A stretch of 64,000 nucleotides of DNA, from NCBI GenBank assembly GCA_947627205.1, contig CANQVE010000001.1:124001-188000 (forward strand), written 5' to 3'. Below are positions 35,904 to 43,988 of the stretch, piece after piece. The number at the start of each line of letters is the position of its first letter. Position 1 is the first letter of the stretch. The DNA is from an uncultured Clostridia bacterium (GTDB taxonomy: Bacteria; Bacillota; Clostridia; Oscillospirales; Ruminococcaceae). The position numbers and the translations under genes are program-made. Under the pieces are notes generated by a model. The model ran no database searches, had not been told where the DNA came from, and saw only the letters and a list, made by a program, of their open reading frames with translations.

Positions 35904-37124
35904 TCACTCGGCGATATATTCGCTCATCTGCTTTATCAGCGCGTTTTCTACAAGCGCGTCAATAAGCACGCCGTTTTCGGTATATTCTTCGGAAAAGACT
36001 TTTCCGTTCTGACGTATCTGCGCGGACAAGCCCGCCTTTTCATAAGGCAAAAGCAGTTTCATTCTGCGCGAGGTCTGAGGAAGATTTCTGGAAATAGCCA
36101 GCATAAGCTCGGGGATACCCTCGTTTTTCAGTGCGGATATTTTTACCGTTCTTTCATCTGTCGGAAGCTCCTCGCTTATTTTATCGCATTTGTTTAAGAC
36201 AGTCACGACGGGTATTTCCGCCGCTCCGAGCTCTGCAAGAGTTTTCAGAGTAACTTCGGCTTTTTCGGCGGATTCGGGATCGGACGCGTCACATACATGA
36301 ATGATGATATCTGCGCTCGCGGCTTCTTCGAGAGTGGATTTGAACGCTTCTACAAGGTTATGAGGCAGTCTGCGGATAAGCCCTACGGTATCTATAAGCA
36401 CAAGATTTCTTCCGTCGGGAAGTTCAACTGAACGTGCGGTAGGATCGAGCGTCGCAAAGAGCTTGTCTTCCGCAAGGACTCCCGCTCCCGTCAGGAGATT
36501 TAACAGCGTGGATTTTCCCGCGTTTGTATAACCGACGACGGCGCCTACTTGTACATTGTCTTTCTTCCTGCGTGAACGCATGAGACCGCGCCGCTTTTCA
36601 AGCTCGCGAAGTTCTTCCGACAGCTTGTCTATGCGCCTGCGGATATGACGGCGGTCGGTTTCGAGCTGAGTTTCTCCCGGACCGCGCGTGCCTATTCCTC
36701 CTCCAAGTCTGGAAAGGCTCGTGCCTATTCCCATAAGCCTCGGCAGGCGGTATTTGAGCTGGGCAAGCTCAACCTGGAGCTTTCCCTCTGCGGAAACCGC
36801 GCGTCCTGCGAAAATATCGAGGATAAGCATTGTGCGGTCGATAACTCGGACTTCCGCCGCGTCCTCTATGTTTCTTATCTGCGAAGCGGTAAGCTCGCAG
36901 TCGAATATAAGAAGTTCGGCGGAATACAGCCTGCAAAGCTCGGATATCTCACTAAGTTTTCCCTCTCCGACAACGGTTGCCGATTCGTATGCTTCGCGCT
37001 TTTGTATAACGCGCGCCGTTTCTTCCGCACCCGCTGTTTTAGCAAGTTCGGAAAGTTCGTCTAATGATATATCGCAGTCGTATTCACCCGTATCTACGGA
37101 AACCAGAATTGCTTTTTCGGGCAT
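35904..37124 (-). CDS. hflX: Ribosome-associated GTPase HflX
   Basis: GTPase that splits stalled or heat-damaged 70S ribosomes. The N-terminal HflX domain ends in a coiled region rich in Arg/Glu (DRRHIRRRIDKLSEELREL) preceded by GTRGPGETQLE. The G domain shows VVGYTNAGKSTLLN (G1), DTVGLIRRLP (G3) and NKCDK (G4). The 406-aa length is normal. It has its own consensus promoter and an AAGGAG site, and is divergent from nadB. Confidence 0.95.
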   Translation of the reverse strand: MPEKAILVSVDTGEYDCDISLDELSELAKTAGAEETARVIQKREAYESATVVGEGKLSEISELCRLYSAELLIFDCELTASQIRNIEDAAEVRVIDRTMLILDIFAGRAVSAEGKLQVELAQLKYRLPRLMGIGTSLSRLGGGIGTRGPGETQLETDRRHIRRRIDKLSEELRELEKRRGLMRSRRKKDNVQVGAVVGYTNAGKSTLLNLLTGAGVLAEDKLFATLDPTARSVELPDGRNLVLIDTVGLIRRLPHNLVEAFKSTLEEAASADIIIHVCDASDPESAEKAEVTLKTLAELGAAEIPVVTVLNKCDKISEELPTDERTVKISALKNEGIPELMLAISRNLPQTSRRMKLLLPYEKAGLSAQIRQNGKVFSEEYTENGVLIDALVENALIKQMSEYIAE

Positions 37125-37176
37125 TTTATTCTCCTTTGGTTTTTATCATGCCTTAAAAAATAAGACCTTAAAAAAG

Positions 37177-37205
37177 ATTATAGCATTTTTTATACGCCTT
37201 GTCAA
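37177..37205 (-). promoter_or_regulatory. Consensus sigma-A promoter of hflX
   Basis: TTGACA, 17-bp spacer, TATAAT on the minus strand; no mismatch. Confidence 0.88.
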
Positions 37206-37261
37206 GTTCTCGGTCTATAAAACCTTAAAGCTCAAAAGGCGGGCTTTAGAAAGGACAAACT

Positions 37262-38746
37262 ATGAAATTCAAGAGATTTGACGTGCTTATTGTCGGCACG
37301 GGAATTTCGGGCATTTATGCGGCGCTCAACCTTGATACCAAACTGAAAGTGCTTATGCTGTCGAAAAAGGAGCTTTCGCTTTGCAACTCTGCTCTTGCGC
37401 AGGGCGGCGTTGCGGCAGTTATGGACAGCAAGAATGATGATTTTGAGCTGCACATAAAGGACACGCTTATTGCGGGACAGTATAAAAACAACCTCGACAA
37501 TGTAAAGATACTTGTCGAGCAAGGTCCCCGCGATGTTGAAAGACTCGTGGAAAAATACGGAGTGGATTTCGACAGAAACGACGACGGCTCGCTTGCGCTG
37601 ACGCTTGAGGGCGGACATTCGCGCAGGAGAATTGCACATCACAAGGACACAACGGGAAAGGAAATTGAAACGTGTCTTATTGCGCAGGTTGAAAAGCTGA
37701 AGAATGTTACCGTTATAAATCACTCGGTGCTGTGCAGACTTGAAAAGGACAACGGGCTGTTCTTTGCGGACGTGTTTACCGAAAACGGCTCTCACGAATA
37801 TTACTGCGCGAATTTTGTAATTATGGCGACAGGCGGAATAGGCAGAGTGTATAAATATACGACAAACTCCGAAATTGCCACGGGCGACGGTATTGCTTTA
37901 GCTCACGACTTAGGCGCGGAGATAAAGAATTTAAGTTATGTTCAGTTTCACCCGACCGCTTTTGCCGACAAGAAAAACAACGAGTGCTTTCTCGTGTCGG
38001 AGGCAGTGCGCGGAGAGGGAGCGTATCTCTTAAACTGCAACAAAGAGCGCTTTATGCCCGCGTATGAACCCGAAAGAAAAGAGCTTGCGCCGAGAGACGT
38101 TGTTTCAAAATGCATTATGGAAGAACAGAAGAAAACAGGCTCCGACGAATTCTGGCTCGACATTTCATATAAGGACGCGGATTTCATCAAAAACCGATTC
38201 CCGATGATATATGAAAACGTGCTCGAAAAAGGCTATGACATGACAAAAGAGCCTATACCGATATATCCCTGCCAGCACTATCTTATGGGCGGGATAAATG
38301 TAGACGGAAAAGGCGCGACAAATGTTCAGGGGCTGTATTCCGCGGGAGAATGTTCGCATACGGGCGTTCACGGGAAAAACAGGCTTGCGTCGAACTCTCT
38401 GCTTGAAGCGCTTGTTTTTTCAAGGCTTATCGCCGAGGACATAAACTCAAAGGATATTTCACAAAAACAGCCCGAAGCAGAATATCCCATGAGCGAGCCT
38501 AAAGGAAAGCCTCTCGCAAACAAAGCCGAAATTCAGGACGAGATACGCTCTATTATGCAGAAAGCATATTTTGTCTACCCCGATTATGACGAGACCGAGA
38601 AAGGTCTTAAAAGGATAAAAGAGATAAAAGACGACCTCGAAAACGGCGGGTATGAGATAAATGCAGACCATACCGAAACAAGGTCTTTAGCTGTGGTTGC
38701 TTTTATAATCCTTAGTGAAATTTGGGAAAGGAGAAACGAAGAATGA
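37262..38746 (+). CDS. nadB: L-aspartate oxidase
   Basis: Flavoenzyme that oxidises aspartate to iminoaspartate in de novo NAD synthesis; under anaerobiosis fumarate serves as acceptor. The FAD motif VGTGISGIYAALN, NSALAQGGVAAV, VRGEGAYLLN and GVHGKNRLASNSLLEALVF are all present. The length of 494 aa is slightly short, with a compact C-terminal helical domain. The stop overlaps the nadC ATG. nadA (quinolinate synthase), normally clustered here, is not in this window. The promoter is not obvious, and an NAD-responsive repressor site was not recognised. Confidence 0.95.
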   Translation: MKFKRFDVLIVGTGISGIYAALNLDTKLKVLMLSKKELSLCNSALAQGGVAAVMDSKNDDFELHIKDTLIAGQYKNNLDNVKILVEQGPRDVERLVEKYGVDFDRNDDGSLALTLEGGHSRRRIAHHKDTTGKEIETCLIAQVEKLKNVTVINHSVLCRLEKDNGLFFADVFTENGSHEYYCANFVIMATGGIGRVYKYTTNSEIATGDGIALAHDLGAEIKNLSYVQFHPTAFADKKNNECFLVSEAVRGEGAYLLNCNKERFMPAYEPERKELAPRDVVSKCIMEEQKKTGSDEFWLDISYKDADFIKNRFPMIYENVLEKGYDMTKEPIPIYPCQHYLMGGINVDGKGATNVQGLYSAGECSHTGVHGKNRLASNSLLEALVFSRLIAEDINSKDISQKQPEAEYPMSEPKGKPLANKAEIQDEIRSIMQKAYFVYPDYDETEKGLKRIKEIKDDLENGGYEINADHTETRSLAVVAFIILSEIWERRNEE

Positions 38747-39582
38747 TACTCCTGCCGTTTTACGTTGACGACCTTATAAAAACAGCGCTCAATGAAGATA
38801 TAAACTACATCGACAGCACCGCAGATCTTCTTATTGACGAAAATTCAATTTCAAGCGCGTACTTTATGGCAAAGGCTGACGGAGTGCTTGCGGGAATTGA
38901 AATTGCGCTGAGAGTGTTTACAATTTTAGATCCCGATATGAAAATGACAGTGTACAAAAAAGACGGGGACAAGATAAAAAAAGGCGAGATTATCGCAGAT
39001 TTCTGCGGTCACACGCGCCTTATGCTCAAAGCCGAAAGAACTGCGCTCAATATTTTACAGCACATGAGCGGGATCGCGACCTATACGAACAAGTGCGTTG
39101 AGGCTGTAAAAGGCACAAAAGCGTCGATAACAGATACGCGAAAGACTCTTCCCGGGCTTCGCGCGCTTCAGAAATACTCGGTGACGGTTGGCGGCGGCAG
39201 AAATCACCGTTATAATCTGACGGACGCGGCAATGCTCAAGGACAATCACATTGACGCATACGGAGGCATTATTCCCGCGGTAGAAGCGCTCCGCAAAAAG
39301 GCGGGACACATGCTCCAGATAGAAGTTGAAACAAGGAATATTGAAGAAGTAAAAGAAGCGCTGGAGTGCAATGTAAATGTGATAATGCTCGACAATATGA
39401 GCACCGAGCAGATGAAAGAAGCTGTAGAGCTTATAAACGGGCGGGCTAAGACCGAGGCATCGGGAAACGTGACGCTAGAGAACATTCGCGAAGTTGCCGA
39501 GACGGGTGTCGATATAATCAGCCTTGGCGCGCTTACGCACAGTGTTTCGGCGTTTGATATTTCAATGAAATGGAAGAAATAA
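38743..39582 (+). CDS. nadC: Nicotinate-nucleotide pyrophosphorylase (quinolinate phosphoribosyltransferase)
   Basis: Decarboxylates quinolinate and joins it to PRPP to give nicotinate mononucleotide. LNILQHMSGIAT, DTRKTLPGLRALQKYSVTVGG and LKDNHI are family hallmarks, and VDIISLGALTHS closes the barrel. The ORF track begins at 38722, but AAAGGAG and the ATGA overlap with nadB fix the start at 38743 (279 aa). It is followed after 12 bp by a small FakA-like gene. Confidence 0.96.
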   Translation: MILLPFYVDDLIKTALNEDINYIDSTADLLIDENSISSAYFMAKADGVLAGIEIALRVFTILDPDMKMTVYKKDGDKIKKGEIIADFCGHTRLMLKAERTALNILQHMSGIATYTNKCVEAVKGTKASITDTRKTLPGLRALQKYSVTVGGGRNHRYNLTDAAMLKDNHIDAYGGIIPAVEALRKKAGHMLQIEVETRNIEEVKEALECNVNVIMLDNMSTEQMKEAVELINGRAKTEASGNVTLENIREVAETGVDIISLGALTHSVSAFDISMKWKK

Positions 39583-39594
39583 CGGAGGATAATA

Positions 39595-39854
39595 TGGCGG
39601 ACGATATTTTATACAGGTATGACACACAGCTTTTGATAGACGGAGAGAACATCGACGAGGACGAGCTTGACAGCTATATCCGCGAGCATTTTGTCGGCGA
39701 CAGCCTGCTTGTTATAGCAGACGAGGATACGGCGAAAATCCATTTTCACACAAACGAGCCGTGGAAAATTCTCGAATATTGCAGAACGCTCGGCGAAATT
39801 TACGATATTGTCGTGGAAGATATGGTGAGACAGGCTAGAGGCGACAAAGGATAA
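39595..39854 (+). CDS. Small stand-alone FakA/DAK-type domain protein
   Basis: An 86-residue protein resembling one internal segment of the fatty-acid kinase subunit FakA (YloV): YRYDTQLLID, then GDSLLVIADEDTAKIHFHTNEPWKILEYC, then a GEIYDIVVEDMVRQ end. In FakA this segment lies between the kinase and C-terminal domains. Here the DAK kinase domain with its ATP site is absent, so the protein cannot be a kinase alone. GGAGG precedes ATG 39595; the ORF track starts earlier inside nadC. Cotranscription with nadBC is likely from the 12-bp gap. The function is unknown; a FakB- or DegV-binding role is a guess. Confidence 0.75.
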
Positions 39855-39875
39855 GGAAAGGCACAAAGACGCGCA

Positions 39876-39900
39876 AGGGGGGGACCTTTTGGGTTCCCCT
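39876..39900 (+). terminator. Weak terminator-like hairpin after the nadBC transcript
   Basis: A G-run followed by ACC, TTTT, and GGTTCCCC can pair imperfectly. No clean T-tail is present. Confidence 0.35.
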
Positions 39901-39988
39901 GCTATAATATAATTACAAACCTCAACCATTTTCTCTATGTCTATTGTCTAACATCTACACAATAAGATAAAAGAATCTTTAAAAAACA

Positions 39989-40017
39989 TTGCAAATTTAA
40001 AAGAATTATGGTATAAT
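39989..40017 (+). promoter_or_regulatory. Promoter of the ATPase/DUF3226 module (extended -10)
   Basis: TTGCAA, 17-bp spacer, TATAAT with an upstream TGG. It lies within a 16-bp block TTATGGTATAATAATC that is repeated on the other strand at 43956-43971. Confidence 0.75.
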
Positions 40018-40100
40018 AATCTCAGAATGGTTAATATACTTTATGTCAGCGCACATCTGCAAAATTTTCTACAAAAATTTTTTTCGTGCGATAAATGTAA
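40006..40100 (+). other. Conserved promoter-leader element, copy A
   Basis: The block TTATGGTATAATAATC is followed after 19 nt by TTATGTC, CGCACATC, GCAAAATTTT, TACAAAA and CGTGCG. The same blocks in the same order and spacing (20 nt after the promoter block) occur at 43879-43971 on the minus strand, about 80 percent identical over about 60 nt. CGCAC and GTGCG can pair. It lies in the leader of the ATPase gene. No ORF is present in 39855-40205. Confidence 0.8.
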
Positions 40101-40205
40101 TCGCAGAGTGCTTATTTCATAACACATATACTATAATAACATCGACATATTGTATTTTTAAGTAGATTCAGAAAATAAATTTCAGAGAGAGGAAGAATAT
40201 AATAT

Positions 40206-41261
40206 ATGATTACAGCTCTTGTTATAGAAAATTTTAAGGTTTTCAGGCATATAGAATTTAAAGATCTTAAACGAATGACTTTGATTTCGGGTAGAAACAA
40301 TATCGGTAAAAGTACCATACTTGAAGCTATGTTCTTATATATGGATCATTTATCCGTAGAATCATTCGGGAAATTGAATGGATTCCGAAGTACGGTTGGT
40401 ATGGGTGTTGAAGGTTTATGGGAACCTTTGTTTTATCAGATGGATACGAATAACCCTATTCATATCACCGTTACCGACAATGACAGGACAGGACATCTGC
40501 TTTACGAGCGCGACGATCAATATTTACCGTCCGGTATCAGTGGTTTATCAGAAGAGGTTCTTGCAAATTTCCGAGCGGATACAAGAAGTTCTTATTCATT
40601 AGCCTGCTCTTTTTCAGATAGCAATTATAAGGAACAAGGTCATTTCACATTGAATAAAAACTCAGTTCTTAGGGATTTCACTACTTCACTTGCCGGAAAT
40701 GAAAATCTACCAATGAAACCAACGAAGTTTATGAATAATCTTTTTTTCCGCAATAATAACATTATAAATGATATTGGAAGAGTAGAATTGTCCGGTGAAA
40801 AACAGGAACTTGTCAGAGCATTAAAGGAAATGGATCCTTCCATTGAAGATATTGTTACATTGGTAGTGCATGGCATAACACAGTTGTATATCAAAATTGC
40901 CGGAGAACTAAGACCTTTGCAATATGCCGGTGATGGAATTGCAAAACTTCTAAGCATCTGTTCATCAATAATGTGTCAGCAAAATGGTCTTGTTTTAATT
41001 GACGAAATAGAATCCGGCTTTCATTACTCTATGTATGGCAAACTATGGAATCTTATTGATCATATCAGTCAAAGAGCAAACTGTCAAGTCGTTGCGACAA
41101 CACACAGCTATGAATTGATTTCCGGAGTGATAGACAATATAGATAAATGTAATGATTTCTGCTATTATAGGATAGGTAAGAAAAAAGAAAATACCGTTGC
41201 CTGTCGTTTCGACTATACAATGCTTCAAGGGGCATTGACGTCCGAAATGGAGGTAAGGTAA
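40206..41261 (+). CDS. AAA15/OLD-like ATPase of a probable two-gene defence module
   Basis: SMC/ABC-type ATPase: ALVIENFKVFRHIEF opens the protein, Walker A is SGRNNIGKST (residues 28-37), and YAGDGIAKLLSIC is a signature-like segment. Walker B is LVLIDEIESG, and ATTHSYELI carries the switch His. A helical insertion of about 200 residues lies between the halves. Such ATPases pair with TOPRIM-like effectors in PARIS, AbiL and OLD-type anti-phage systems. The coding sequence is visibly more AT-rich, with AGA/TTA/ATA codons, than its neighbours, which suggests horizontal transfer. The stop overlaps the next start (TAATG). The defence role is inferred. Confidence 0.82.
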   Translation: MITALVIENFKVFRHIEFKDLKRMTLISGRNNIGKSTILEAMFLYMDHLSVESFGKLNGFRSTVGMGVEGLWEPLFYQMDTNNPIHITVTDNDRTGHLLYERDDQYLPSGISGLSEEVLANFRADTRSSYSLACSFSDSNYKEQGHFTLNKNSVLRDFTTSLAGNENLPMKPTKFMNNLFFRNNNIINDIGRVELSGEKQELVRALKEMDPSIEDIVTLVVHGITQLYIKIAGELRPLQYAGDGIAKLLSICSSIMCQQNGLVLIDEIESGFHYSMYGKLWNLIDHISQRANCQVVATTHSYELISGVIDNIDKCNDFCYYRIGKKKENTVACRFDYTMLQGALTSEMEVR

Positions 41262-41929
41262 TGGCAATTGAAAATAAATGCATTATAAAACGATTTCTTA
41301 TTCTTTGCGAAGGTATTGATACACAGAATTTTTTGATAGAGTATCTGAACAGTGATGTACTGAAGAAATACGACTCAAGATTCAGTAATGATATACAAAT
41401 TCTTAATTTTGGTGGAATAAACGATTTAGATAATTTTATTCTAAATTTGAAAAACATAGAACATTTTGATGAAGTGAACAGATTGTTGATTGTCAGAGAC
41501 GCTGAAACGTATGTCCAAAAATCAATCAGTATGATACAAAAATCATTAGAAAAAGCTGAACTTCCTGTACCAAATGGCTGTCATCAATGGAGCGAAGAAA
41601 ACGAGGATATTAAAACAGCCTTTACATTGATGCCATCATGTAATGCTGAACCTGTTTCCGGTGCACTTGAAAATCTTTGCTGGAAAATCATTAAAAATGA
41701 TTTAAACGGTAAAATACGAAATGATGTGCAGAAATTTGTCGATTATATGGACAATACTTACAACAGCATAAAACCGCATGAACACAAGAGTAAACTTCAT
41801 ACCTATTTTTCTGTAAACTTACGATACATCTCTCATAAAATCGGCGAAGCAGCAAAAGCTGGAGCATTTGACTGGACTAGTCCAGAATTAAATGCTTTAA
41901 AGGAACTAATAGAGGATGGTTGGGTTTAA
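41261..41929 (+). CDS. DUF3226 / TOPRIM-like effector candidate
   Basis: A 222-aa protein resembling DUF3226. FLILCEGIDTQNFLIEYL (residues 12-29) fits the conserved Glu of TOPRIM folds, and LLIVRDAET (about residue 75) supplies an Asp-x-Glu in place of the usual DxD. TOPRIM domains cut or rejoin nucleic acids with metal ions. Paired with an SMC-like ATPase, the arrangement parallels AriA-AriB of PARIS, though the AriB family (DUF4435) is different. The start shares one base with the ATPase stop and has GGAGG upstream, so strict co-expression is expected. AT-rich codon use matches the ATPase. Nuclease activity is not proven by the motifs. Confidence 0.72.
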   Translation: MAIENKCIIKRFLILCEGIDTQNFLIEYLNSDVLKKYDSRFSNDIQILNFGGINDLDNFILNLKNIEHFDEVNRLLIVRDAETYVQKSISMIQKSLEKAELPVPNGCHQWSEENEDIKTAFTLMPSCNAEPVSGALENLCWKIIKNDLNGKIRNDVQKFVDYMDNTYNSIKPHEHKSKLHTYFSVNLRYISHKIGEAAKAGAFDWTSPELNALKELIEDGWV

Positions 41930-42036
41930 ATTTCTATGCCCTCAATAAGATAATGGGATATAGTTTATCTGATGTTTAAGTATTTAAGTAATAATAGACT
42001 TGTGAAAGATCACAACCTAATGCCTGTCTAAAAAAT

Positions 42037-42074
42037 TTAACGGTATCAGCGCAATTTTGCATTGATACCGTTAA
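42037..42074. terminator. Perfect dyad after the ATPase/DUF3226 module
   Basis: TTAACGGTATCA / TGATACCGTTAA, 12-bp arms with a 14-nt loop. It is preceded by an A-run and followed by TTGTAAG, and lies between converging genes. Confidence 0.65.
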
Positions 42075-42183
42075 TTGTAAGCAGTAATGTACAACGGACC
42101 ATGAGTATTATCCAAAACATTTTAATACGAAAAGTCAAGACAAATTACTAAAGATTACAAAAAAGTGAAAGGCTTAAATGCAC

Positions 42184-42453
42184 TCACATTACCTCGTGCT
42201 TTACACGAGCCTTTTCCTCGGCGCGCTTCGCGTTGTTGAAACGGTCGAGAGTTCCTACGAGATAACCCGTTATCCTGCGGATACGCTGGAAAGGAACTTC
42301 CGCAAAGCTGTACTTTGCGTTTACATAACCGCCGTCAAGCTCAAGCTCGATAGCTCTGAGCGTTTTGTCGGGGTATTTTTCCCTCGCTTCGTTGATGTAA
42401 TACTGAACCTCAGCTTCTGAAAGGCTTCCGCCCATAACGTTAATATCAATCAT
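42184..42453 (-). CDS. Small NrdD-like protein
   Basis: An 89-residue protein ending in RIRRITGYLVGTLDRFNNAKRAEEKARVKH, which recalls the C-terminal segment of class III anaerobic ribonucleotide reductases. It lacks the catalytic core, the Cys pairs and a glycyl-radical motif. Similar short proteins in Clostridia are, as I recall, annotated as NrdD-related. Function unknown. The ORF track starts at a TTG at 42462; AGGAG sits 9 nt before ATG 42453, the better start. It stands alone between the DUF3226 gene and the diguanylate cyclase. Confidence 0.72.
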   Translation of the reverse strand: MIDINVMGGSLSEAEVQYYINEAREKYPDKTLRAIELELDGGYVNAKYSFAEVPFQRIRRITGYLVGTLDRFNNAKRAEEKARVKHEVM

Positions 42454-42565
42454 TTTTATCAATCTCCTATCAATATTTTTGGGGTGTGATTAGAGTATAA
42501 CACAATATCTTGTATATGTCAATTAGCAAATTACACAATTTTTTGATAATTTTTTTGTACATGCT

Positions 42566-43672
42566 TCAGACAACGACCTTGTTCTTTCCGCTGTTTTTCC
42601 CCTCGTAAAGCCGTTTATCCGCGGCCGAGATAAGCATATCCATATATGTAGAAGACTGAGCGCCCGAATTTATTTTAAGCTCTGTATAATTTGCAAGTCC
42701 GAATGTCATACTTACATTGATGTTCTCTTCATTATAAACCAGACCGAGCTTATTTATGTGCGATCTTATTTTTTCCGTGCGGGCGAGGCAGTCATTTCTT
42801 GTGCCTAAAAGTATCATCAAAATTTCCTCGCCGCCCCAGCGCACCGCTATATCTCCCTCTCTGACTTCATCAAGAAATACCTTTGCGACATTTTTCAGCA
42901 CTATATCCCCGCAGTCGTGACCGTAGGTGTCGTTTATCTTCTTGAAGTCGTCTATGTCGCCCATTATAACGCAGAAGCTCTCTTCTTTCTTCATGAGCTC
43001 GTCAAAATAACCCCACAAGGCATGGCGGTTATAAAGTCCCGTGAGCGCGTCATGTTCGGCTATGTATTCAAGCTCTTCGTTCTTTTTGCCAAGCTCTCTT
43101 ATCAGCCCTGATATCTCCGCGCAGAACATCAGCGTAAATGCACACAAGCAGACCATTGCGAAGAAAATATTGACGGTTTTCATTATGATCGTCCCCGTAG
43201 CATTCAGGGTATGAATATTCATCAGCTCATAGAACGGACCGAAAATATTGTCGAAAACAACACTTATTATCAGCAGAATGACCGACGCAGACGTAAACAG
43301 AACGATCTGCTTTCTGAATTTTTCCCTGCTCCCGTAAAAGAACAGGCAATATGCCGCGATGGGAATTGTCAGCAGATAGTAAACGTAAAATCCGACGTCT
43401 ACTCCCAGAAACAGCGTGCAGAGAAAAGCATGTACGACTATTTCGGAATAAATAGCGTTTATCCAATTGTCTGCGTGCTCGGATACTGTGCCTTTGTCGC
43501 AGGCCGCCGCGCAGCAAATGTAAAGGGTTACGCTCAGGACATTAAATCCTGCCAGCAAAAAATAACTAAGCGATGCAAATTCTATCAGAAAGGTCAGATG
43601 CGTCACGGCACAGCAAATACAGATGAGCCTGAATTTATTATCGACAGAAAATTTTGACGCATCAAATTTCAT
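42566..43672 (-). CDS. Membrane-bound diguanylate cyclase (GGDEF)
   Basis: About six transmembrane helices (residues 10-195) are followed by a short coiled segment and a complete GGDEF domain: EYIAEHDALTGLYNRHALW, VIMGDIDDFKKINDTYGHDCGD and an intact RWGGEEILMIL active site. It should make cyclic di-GMP from two GTP in response to an unknown membrane signal. No RxxD inhibitory site is obvious before the motif. The length of 368 aa fits this architecture. Promoter-leader element B, about 290 bp upstream and in the same orientation, may drive it. It contrasts with the degenerate GGDEF/EAL protein at 10.6 kb. Confidence 0.92.
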   Translation of the reverse strand: MKFDASKFSVDNKFRLICICCAVTHLTFLIEFASLSYFLLAGFNVLSVTLYICCAAACDKGTVSEHADNWINAIYSEIVVHAFLCTLFLGVDVGFYVYYLLTIPIAAYCLFFYGSREKFRKQIVLFTSASVILLIISVVFDNIFGPFYELMNIHTLNATGTIIMKTVNIFFAMVCLCAFTLMFCAEISGLIRELGKKNEELEYIAEHDALTGLYNRHALWGYFDELMKKEESFCVIMGDIDDFKKINDTYGHDCGDIVLKNVAKVFLDEVREGDIAVRWGGEEILMILLGTRNDCLARTEKIRSHINKLGLVYNEENINVSMTFGLANYTELKINSGAQSSTYMDMLISAADKRLYEGKNSGKNKVVV

Positions 43673-43838
43673 CTCTTTCGCTCCCTCTTTAAATAATTTG
43701 CAGATATTTACCGATAACTAACACATATCTGCCCAAAACATTATAATCCCTAATACTAAAAATGTGATCTATTTCTTTCTCACTATAGGAAGAATTTTAC
43801 AGATTCCTTGCAAAATAATTCAAGCGTGTACTTTTTAT

Positions 43839-43876
43839 AATTATACCATAAATTCGCAAGAATTTATGGTATAATT
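43839..43876. other. Perfect 17-bp-arm hairpin with GCAA loop
   Basis: AATTATACCATAAATTC / GAATTTATGGTATAATT around GCAA (TTGC on the other strand). The arms contain the same TTTATGGTATAAT word that bounds element B on its other side. Confidence 0.85.
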
Positions 43877-43878
43877 GT

Positions 43879-43971
43879 CCATTACCGCACGGAGCAAAAT
43901 TTTGTAAAAAATTTTGCGGATGTGCGTGGACATAAATGTATAATAATCGCCTTGCGATTATTATACCATAA
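43879..43971 (-). other. Conserved promoter-leader element, copy B
   Basis: Minus strand: TTATGGTATAATAATC, 20 nt, then TTATGTC, CGCACATC, GCAAAATTTT, TACAAAA, TTTTGC and CGTGCG. It folds into GTCCA-CGCAC ... GTGCG-TGGAC with an inner GCAAAATTTT / AAAATTTTGC stem. Element A at 40006-40100 shows the same blocks. It reads toward the diguanylate cyclase gene. Confidence 0.8.
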
Positions 43972-43988
43972 ACTGCGGAGAAAATCAA
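43960..43988 (-). promoter_or_regulatory. Promoter within element B
   Basis: TTGATT, 17-bp spacer, TATAAT (extended TGG) on the minus strand, oriented toward the diguanylate cyclase. Confidence 0.7.

Follow-up and report, generated by a model that had tools for sequence, protein, structure and literature searches.

Results

Two facing copies of a promoter-proximal block

The window, the whole 64,000-nt stretch of DNA that was analysed, comes from an uncultured Clostridia bacterium (genome G000) and contains two similar blocks, here called copy A and copy B. Copy A leads into ATPase and DUF3226 genes and copy B, on the opposite strand, into the gene for a GGDEF protein (Table 1). The two face each other because their downstream genes are convergent. 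The similarity of a 92-aa protein encoded at 42184-42462 to the NRDD family is confined to the final 30 positions of that family (the C terminus of anaerobic ribonucleotide reductase).

Alignment confirmed the similarity pointed out in the preliminary description of this locus: the inverted pair joins 40040-40094 to 43882-43936 (55 nt, 84% identity) and 40006-40042 to 43935-43971 (37 nt, 78% identity). The sequence TTATGGTATAATAATC is exact at both block sites, and CGCACATCNGCAAAATTTT has two exact occurrences in the window, versus 0.14 expected at three or fewer mismatches. The promoters proposed there also hold, with consensus -35/-10 geometry at copy A (TTGCAA-N17-TATAAT) and at copy B (TTGATT-N17-TATAAT, 43960-43988, minus strand), as does the facing arrangement. 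Copy B reaches about 45 nt past the block as first described, to a perfect terminal hairpin at 43840-43875. In both copies the two TATAAT boxes lie 120 nt apart, the second box of copy A being a candidate remnant. When compared to shuffled sequences, copy B folds far more stably (z of -10.2), in contrast to copy A (z of -1.5). Copy B is intact, and copy A is decayed.

Table 1. Positions of the two copies, their parts, and the adjoining genes in the window
Feature	Position	Strand	Remark
-35 of the GGDEF gene's host promoter (TTGATT), outside the element	43983..43988	-	conserved where the allele is empty (G041, G040)
Copy B 5' box TTATGGTATAAT, the host's own extended -10 and target site (TATAAT 43960-43965)	43960..43971	-	
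Copy B insert of 120 nt, starting immediately behind the first TATAAT and including the second	43840..43959	-	absent in G041 and G040
Copy B hairpin 1 (GTATAATAATCGC AAG GCGATTATTATAC), left arm taking in the target -10 box	43938..43966	-	
Copy B hairpin 2 (GTCC...GGAC), with conserved internal loop ATNC / TCC	43877..43931	-	
Copy B hairpin 3 (ATTATACCATAAATTC TTGC GAATTTATGGTATAAT), right arm forming the second extended -10 box	43840..43875	-	
Copy A promoter TTGCAA-N17-TATAAT (TATAAT 40012-40017)	39989..40017	+	
Copy A, decayed: element match to ~40094 (81%), hairpins weakened, candidate second-TATAAT remnant 40132-40137	40018..40137	+	
GGDEF protein gene behind copy B, at its native locus	42566..43672	-	Pfam GGDEF 1.4e-35; native in G041
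AAA_15/AAA_21 ATPase and DUF3226 genes that follow copy A, within the strain-specific region	40206..41929	+	

The relative G041 carries the NrdD-like and GGDEF genes as native genes. It matches the window at 37003-39854, at 42186-43852, and from 43957 onward, with 407 unrelated nt between the first two of these segments. Both G041 and G040 have the GGDEF locus without copy B, and the empty alleles at the copy B target site read GTGGTATAAT. None of the 42 other congeneric genomes has a DNA match to the ATPase/DUF3226 region (~39855-42185), which places copy A in a separate region specific to the strain. Copy A is an old element in the promoter of that region, and copy B is an independent insertion into the native GGDEF promoter.

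Copy number and distribution

The genome that carries the window holds 8 to 10 copies of the element. A query with copy B recovers six other long copies (94 to 97% identity over 91 to 135 nt) on contigs C2, C25, C34, C1, and C8 (two), together with copy A (81%) and shorter remnants. The element is present in 27 of 43 congeneric genomes by BLAST and in 28 of 43 by a covariance model trained on 41 copies; the model counts 45 in G037. In a sample of the family, the model finds the element in at least 58 of 249 genomes and at least 35 of 126 genera, counts that are lower bounds with 14 candidates scored per genome. Tandem arrays have a period of 109 to 116 nt, and adjoining units have one TATAAT in common; near-identical units with a period of ~109 nt are arrayed at G267:C12:391911-392576. 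Phage and plasmid records gave no element match, and one exact hairpin 1 pattern had no occurrence in viral contigs. The close relatives, uncultured Clostridia metagenome assemblies with isolate names containing "Lapin," presumably come from rabbit gut.

The element inserts directly behind the -10 box of existing promoters

Empty alleles were sought with queries that join both flanks of each copy and were matched ungapped in relatives. They were found for five loci of the genome itself and for fourteen loci of other genomes (G040, G105, G199, and G266). Within the genome, the copy B locus is empty in G041 and G040; the typA locus in G041, G034, and G037; the hpt locus in G041, G031, G012, G013, G011, and G034; the aminotransferase locus in G041, G031, G037, and G034; and the rubrerythrin locus in G031 and G041. 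An empty allele is an ordinary promoter; in the occupied allele that promoter is interrupted after TATAAT by the element and a second TATAAT, beyond which it continues. Each insertion sits immediately 3' of TATAAT in a sigma-A promoter already in place, in a single orientation, and leaves the host -35 and first -10 intact.

Among the target promoters are those of genes for diguanylate cyclase, typA, hpt, rubrerythrin, an aminotransferase, tmRNA, and SRP RNA; the window genes, tmRNA, and SRP RNA were identified by search and the others read from translated starts. At the tmRNA (ssrA) promoter, G031 and G041 have a full element and the genome itself a truncated one (beside L170 2080-2429). At L227, the SRP RNA begins 36 nt after the element. 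Defence or GGDEF genes do not recur as a theme among the neighbors of the copies, and with such unrelated genes behind the other copies the proposed coordination of the two units in the window does not stand. What stands of that proposal is a sigma-A promoter followed by a block that its transcript would include as a leader.

A TTG lies exactly 17 nt upstream in 70 of 134 distinct 5' flanks (a set that includes a few antisense or array-internal hits), 16 nt upstream in 6, and 18 nt upstream in 4, with counts at other distances mostly below 10. In G+C-rich genera, no -35 can be made out at some of the copies. Among control TGN-TATAAT sites outside the element, ~12 of 18, counted by eye, look like promoters. 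The target may therefore be the extended -10 sequence itself and not promoter activity, and the TTG at 17 nt may simply reflect that TGN-TATAAT sites are mostly promoters here.

Two other repeats were observed. One, TGTTACAATAGATGTGAGACAAAAGGTATAGAAAAAGTGGTTGAGAT..., lies directly upstream of three element-bearing promoters (L003 1641-1753, L004 1635-1754, and L167 4650-4738), with a weaker version at window 39920-39970, and also occurs at contig ends in several genomes. It probably represents the end of an IS or a further small repeat; beside L003 and L004 it was rejected as a partner IS, as the flanks read there hold no related ends and no transposase. The other, a G+C-rich palindromic intergenic repeat (CTCGCCCTATCCCCCTGCCCCCTTTCCC...GGGGAAAGGGGGAGA), has at least two occurrences in the stretch L010/L166 (G000:C13, ~44.3 to 44.9 kb).

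Anatomy of the element

The element is a hairpin-rich mobile DNA of ~111 bases with TATAAT at each end. An occupied promoter reads, in order, host -35, 17 nt, host TGN-TATAAT, hairpin 1, hairpin 2, and hairpin 3. The left arm of hairpin 1 includes the host TATAAT. Hairpin 2 has the form TGTCC...GGACA or an equivalent such as TGGCC...GGCCA, and hairpin 3 runs from ATTATA-N' through a loop to TGN-TATAAT, so that its right arm is the second TGN-TATAAT. The inserted part thus comprises the three hairpins, including this second TATAAT. The element ends are the hairpins themselves, which are mutually inverted only loosely. From the first TATAAT to the loop of hairpin 1 there are 5 to 7 nt in 135 of 138 copies measured, and the transcription start would therefore be expected in that loop.

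The only strongly conserved unpaired bases found in hairpin 2 form an asymmetric internal loop, with ATNC opposite TCC. Its polarity is kept while the flanking pairs vary, and this loop is likely a mark recognized by a protein.

The helices covary strongly. Compensatory double changes occur at 19 of 40 helix pairs. Over ~159 distinct copies, in two alignments fitted to the covariance model, there are 5,716 Watson-Crick, 70 G-U, and 62 A-C pairs. For an RNA under selection, G-U would be preferred over A-C. Since G-U is no commoner than A-C mismatches, it is apparently as DNA that the hairpins count, or are repaired, and the constraint looks to act at the DNA level. No Rfam family matched any copy, and a known RNA family was dropped as a candidate.

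Target and element mostly match in sequence

The base N is identical in the 5' and 3' boxes of 79 of 88 distinct copies, and in a permutation test within genomes 61 of 67 match, versus 46.9 expected (P < 5e-5). TATAAT stands on both sides of the element, and two loci reveal where the flanking positions come from. At L072 the target is GGATATAAT and the 3' box TGATATAAT; at L069, three relatives show A at the target N, and the 3' box carries G. The sequence left of TATAAT is therefore target-derived on the left side and element-derived on the right side. Judged from these sequences, the exchange point appears to lie within TATAAT or at its right edge.

In genus g64, two subfamilies differ at the unpaired loop base (A or T) of hairpin 3. 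A-type copies have TGA targets in 6 of 6 cases, and T-type copies have TGT targets in 10 of 11 by the present 5' box and in 11 of 11 by empty alleles, the L223 target being read from the empty alleles in G105 and G266. Pre-insertion targets mostly match the element's own TGN-TATAAT at N, which suggests sequence-matched targeting. Alternatively, the match at N could arise from a duplication that covers N, followed by hairpin correction that adjusts b'. In L079 (CGC), such a duplication seems to have escaped correction.

Search for a mobilizing enzyme

Y1_Tnp has no hit in G000, G031, G040, and G041; of 20 element-rich genomes, 12 lack it, among them G105, G199, and G266, which hold near-identical copies. 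Reverse transcriptase (RVT_1) was not found in G000 and 11 other element-bearing genomes, and a search for the IS110 DEDD recombinase in ten genomes of genus g1, in G199, and in G266 found none. None of the three (Y1/RAYT, reverse transcriptase, or IS110) is consistently present in element-rich genomes, and all were rejected as the mobilizer. No transposase-bearing or autonomous relative was found, and the partial copies inspected in G000 and the g64 genomes have no transposase. Partial hits in G000 contig C13, G105, G199, and G266, considered as autonomous copies, proved to be decayed copies or contig ends.

Discussion

Both blocks are very probably copies of one small mobile DNA element, non-autonomous and inserted into sigma-A promoters on the 3' side of TATAAT. 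The host promoter would still start transcription, at the position expected in the loop of hairpin 1, and the transcript would run through the element, giving the gene a leader longer by ~120 nt. With transcription continuing from the host promoter, insertion would be largely tolerated. New copies can also sit head-to-tail, with one TATAAT in common.

For the mechanism, we give an even chance to a putative recombinase that acts on the hairpin-folded strand, cuts the target and the right-end TATAAT, and joins them, favoring a matched TGN-TATAAT because the element's own complementary segments, namely b' and the hairpin 1 right arm, would pair with it. Such targeting would resemble the guide and cleavage-site logic of IS200/IS605, and no such enzyme was found in the host. 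The wider reading, a new kind of mobile DNA that finds -10 boxes by complementarity to internal box copies, inserts as a folded single strand, possibly by a host-encoded recombinase, and leaves the promoter working, is tentative, and we rate it on the unlikely side.

The element could instead be a conventional MITE moved by a DDE transposase, with a 6- to 9-bp target duplication (TATAAT or TGNTATAAT) and internal inverted copies that were later corrected by the hairpins. Like MITEs, it is short, non-coding, multi-copy, and mobile as judged by empty sites. The TATAAT direct repeat at both ends with clean empty sites, the loosely inverted ends, and L079, whose outer boxes are both TGC with b' of G type, as if freshly duplicated, all agree with this account. 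However, the g64 subfamily predicts the target N, which simple duplication would not; at L069 the 3' box differs from the target N recorded in relatives; and no IS with the same ends was found. We regard a DDE transposase as a real but somewhat doubtful possibility. It competes on mechanism only, as a mobile element is common to both accounts.

IS200/IS605 elements insert 3' of a short target that is kept on the left, have a similar right-end cleavage sequence, and pair through guide segments. The present element is alike in leaving its target on the left side, in its right-end sequence, and in its complementary guide segments, but differs in its 6- to 9-nt box, longer complementary arms, absent enzyme, and lack of a transposase-bearing copy. 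A derivative of this type (Y1 HUH; PATE or REPIN-like), moved in trans by TnpA or RAYT, would account for the one-sided target 5' of the element, the fixed orientation, the subterminal hairpins with guide-like segments, and the DNA-level structure with its conserved bulge. Because Y1_Tnp is absent from the genome itself, its close relatives, and most of the element-rich genomes searched, we find this derivation unlikely.

A shared RNA leader is ruled out by the wobble counts, the empty alleles, and the unrelated downstream genes. More generally, a structured RNA family (leader or sRNA) with its own promoter, kept for regulation, would fit the strong covariation, the 5' promoter, and the spread over 35 genera. 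Against it stand the G-U counts, the empty alleles at orthologous genes, downstream genes as unrelated as tmRNA and SRP RNA, half of hairpin 1 lying upstream of the expected start, and the lack of any Rfam match, which together make it very improbable. The reading of the two blocks as borders of a single inserted segment (40.0 to 43.97 kb) can be dismissed almost entirely, despite their inverted orientation and the enclosed genes, since in G041 the NrdD-like and GGDEF genes, which make up the right half, are native, and copy B alone is missing there and in G040; the earlier suspicion that something was inserted was itself well founded.

The nearest described kinds are Correia, REP/RAYT, REPIN, and the pneumococcal repeats, among which the promoter specificity of the present element is unusual. 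Correia elements (CREE) of Neisseria have direct repeats of TA or 3 to 5 bp (TATA, CTATA) that are like a -10 hexamer (PMC9330008), affect downstream genes, and carry promoters near genes (PMC10969869). They are similarly ~100- to 150-bp non-autonomous palindromic repeats near promoters with TATAAT-like sequences. In contrast, the site of the present element is the whole TATAAT of an existing promoter, entered in fixed orientation with the -35 left in place, and the element consists of three hairpins with family-wide covariation and a second -10 in the terminal hairpin.

REP/BIME and REPIN sequences, associated with RAYT (Y1), are intergenic DNA hairpins that form tandem arrays and spread non-autonomously (PMC2817692, PMC3116915). 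The present element shares these three traits but targets promoters, and most of the hosts tested have no Y1 protein. REPs carry a GTAG-type foot, which the present element lacks. BOX, RUP, and SPRITE of Streptococcus pneumoniae are, like the present element, small modular stem-loop repeats, apparently parasitic, with a low transposition rate (PMC3049150). Their structure is unrelated, and the description consulted gives no -10 box target for them. A literature search that reached a minority of subscription journals found no description of a small element specific for -10 boxes.

Together, these alleles provide a clear natural case of a bacterial element with the -10 box of housekeeping promoters as its insertion site, in at least 35 genera and with clean before and after states. 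Repeats of this type mislead searches for RNA motifs because covarying DNA hairpins look like structured RNAs. The occupied and empty alleles are natural experiments on the tolerance of promoters for a ~120-nt leader. They pose sharp questions: which enzyme moves the element, and whether the target is chosen by base pairing. If targeting is indeed guided by complementarity, promoters themselves would be the homing site of the element.
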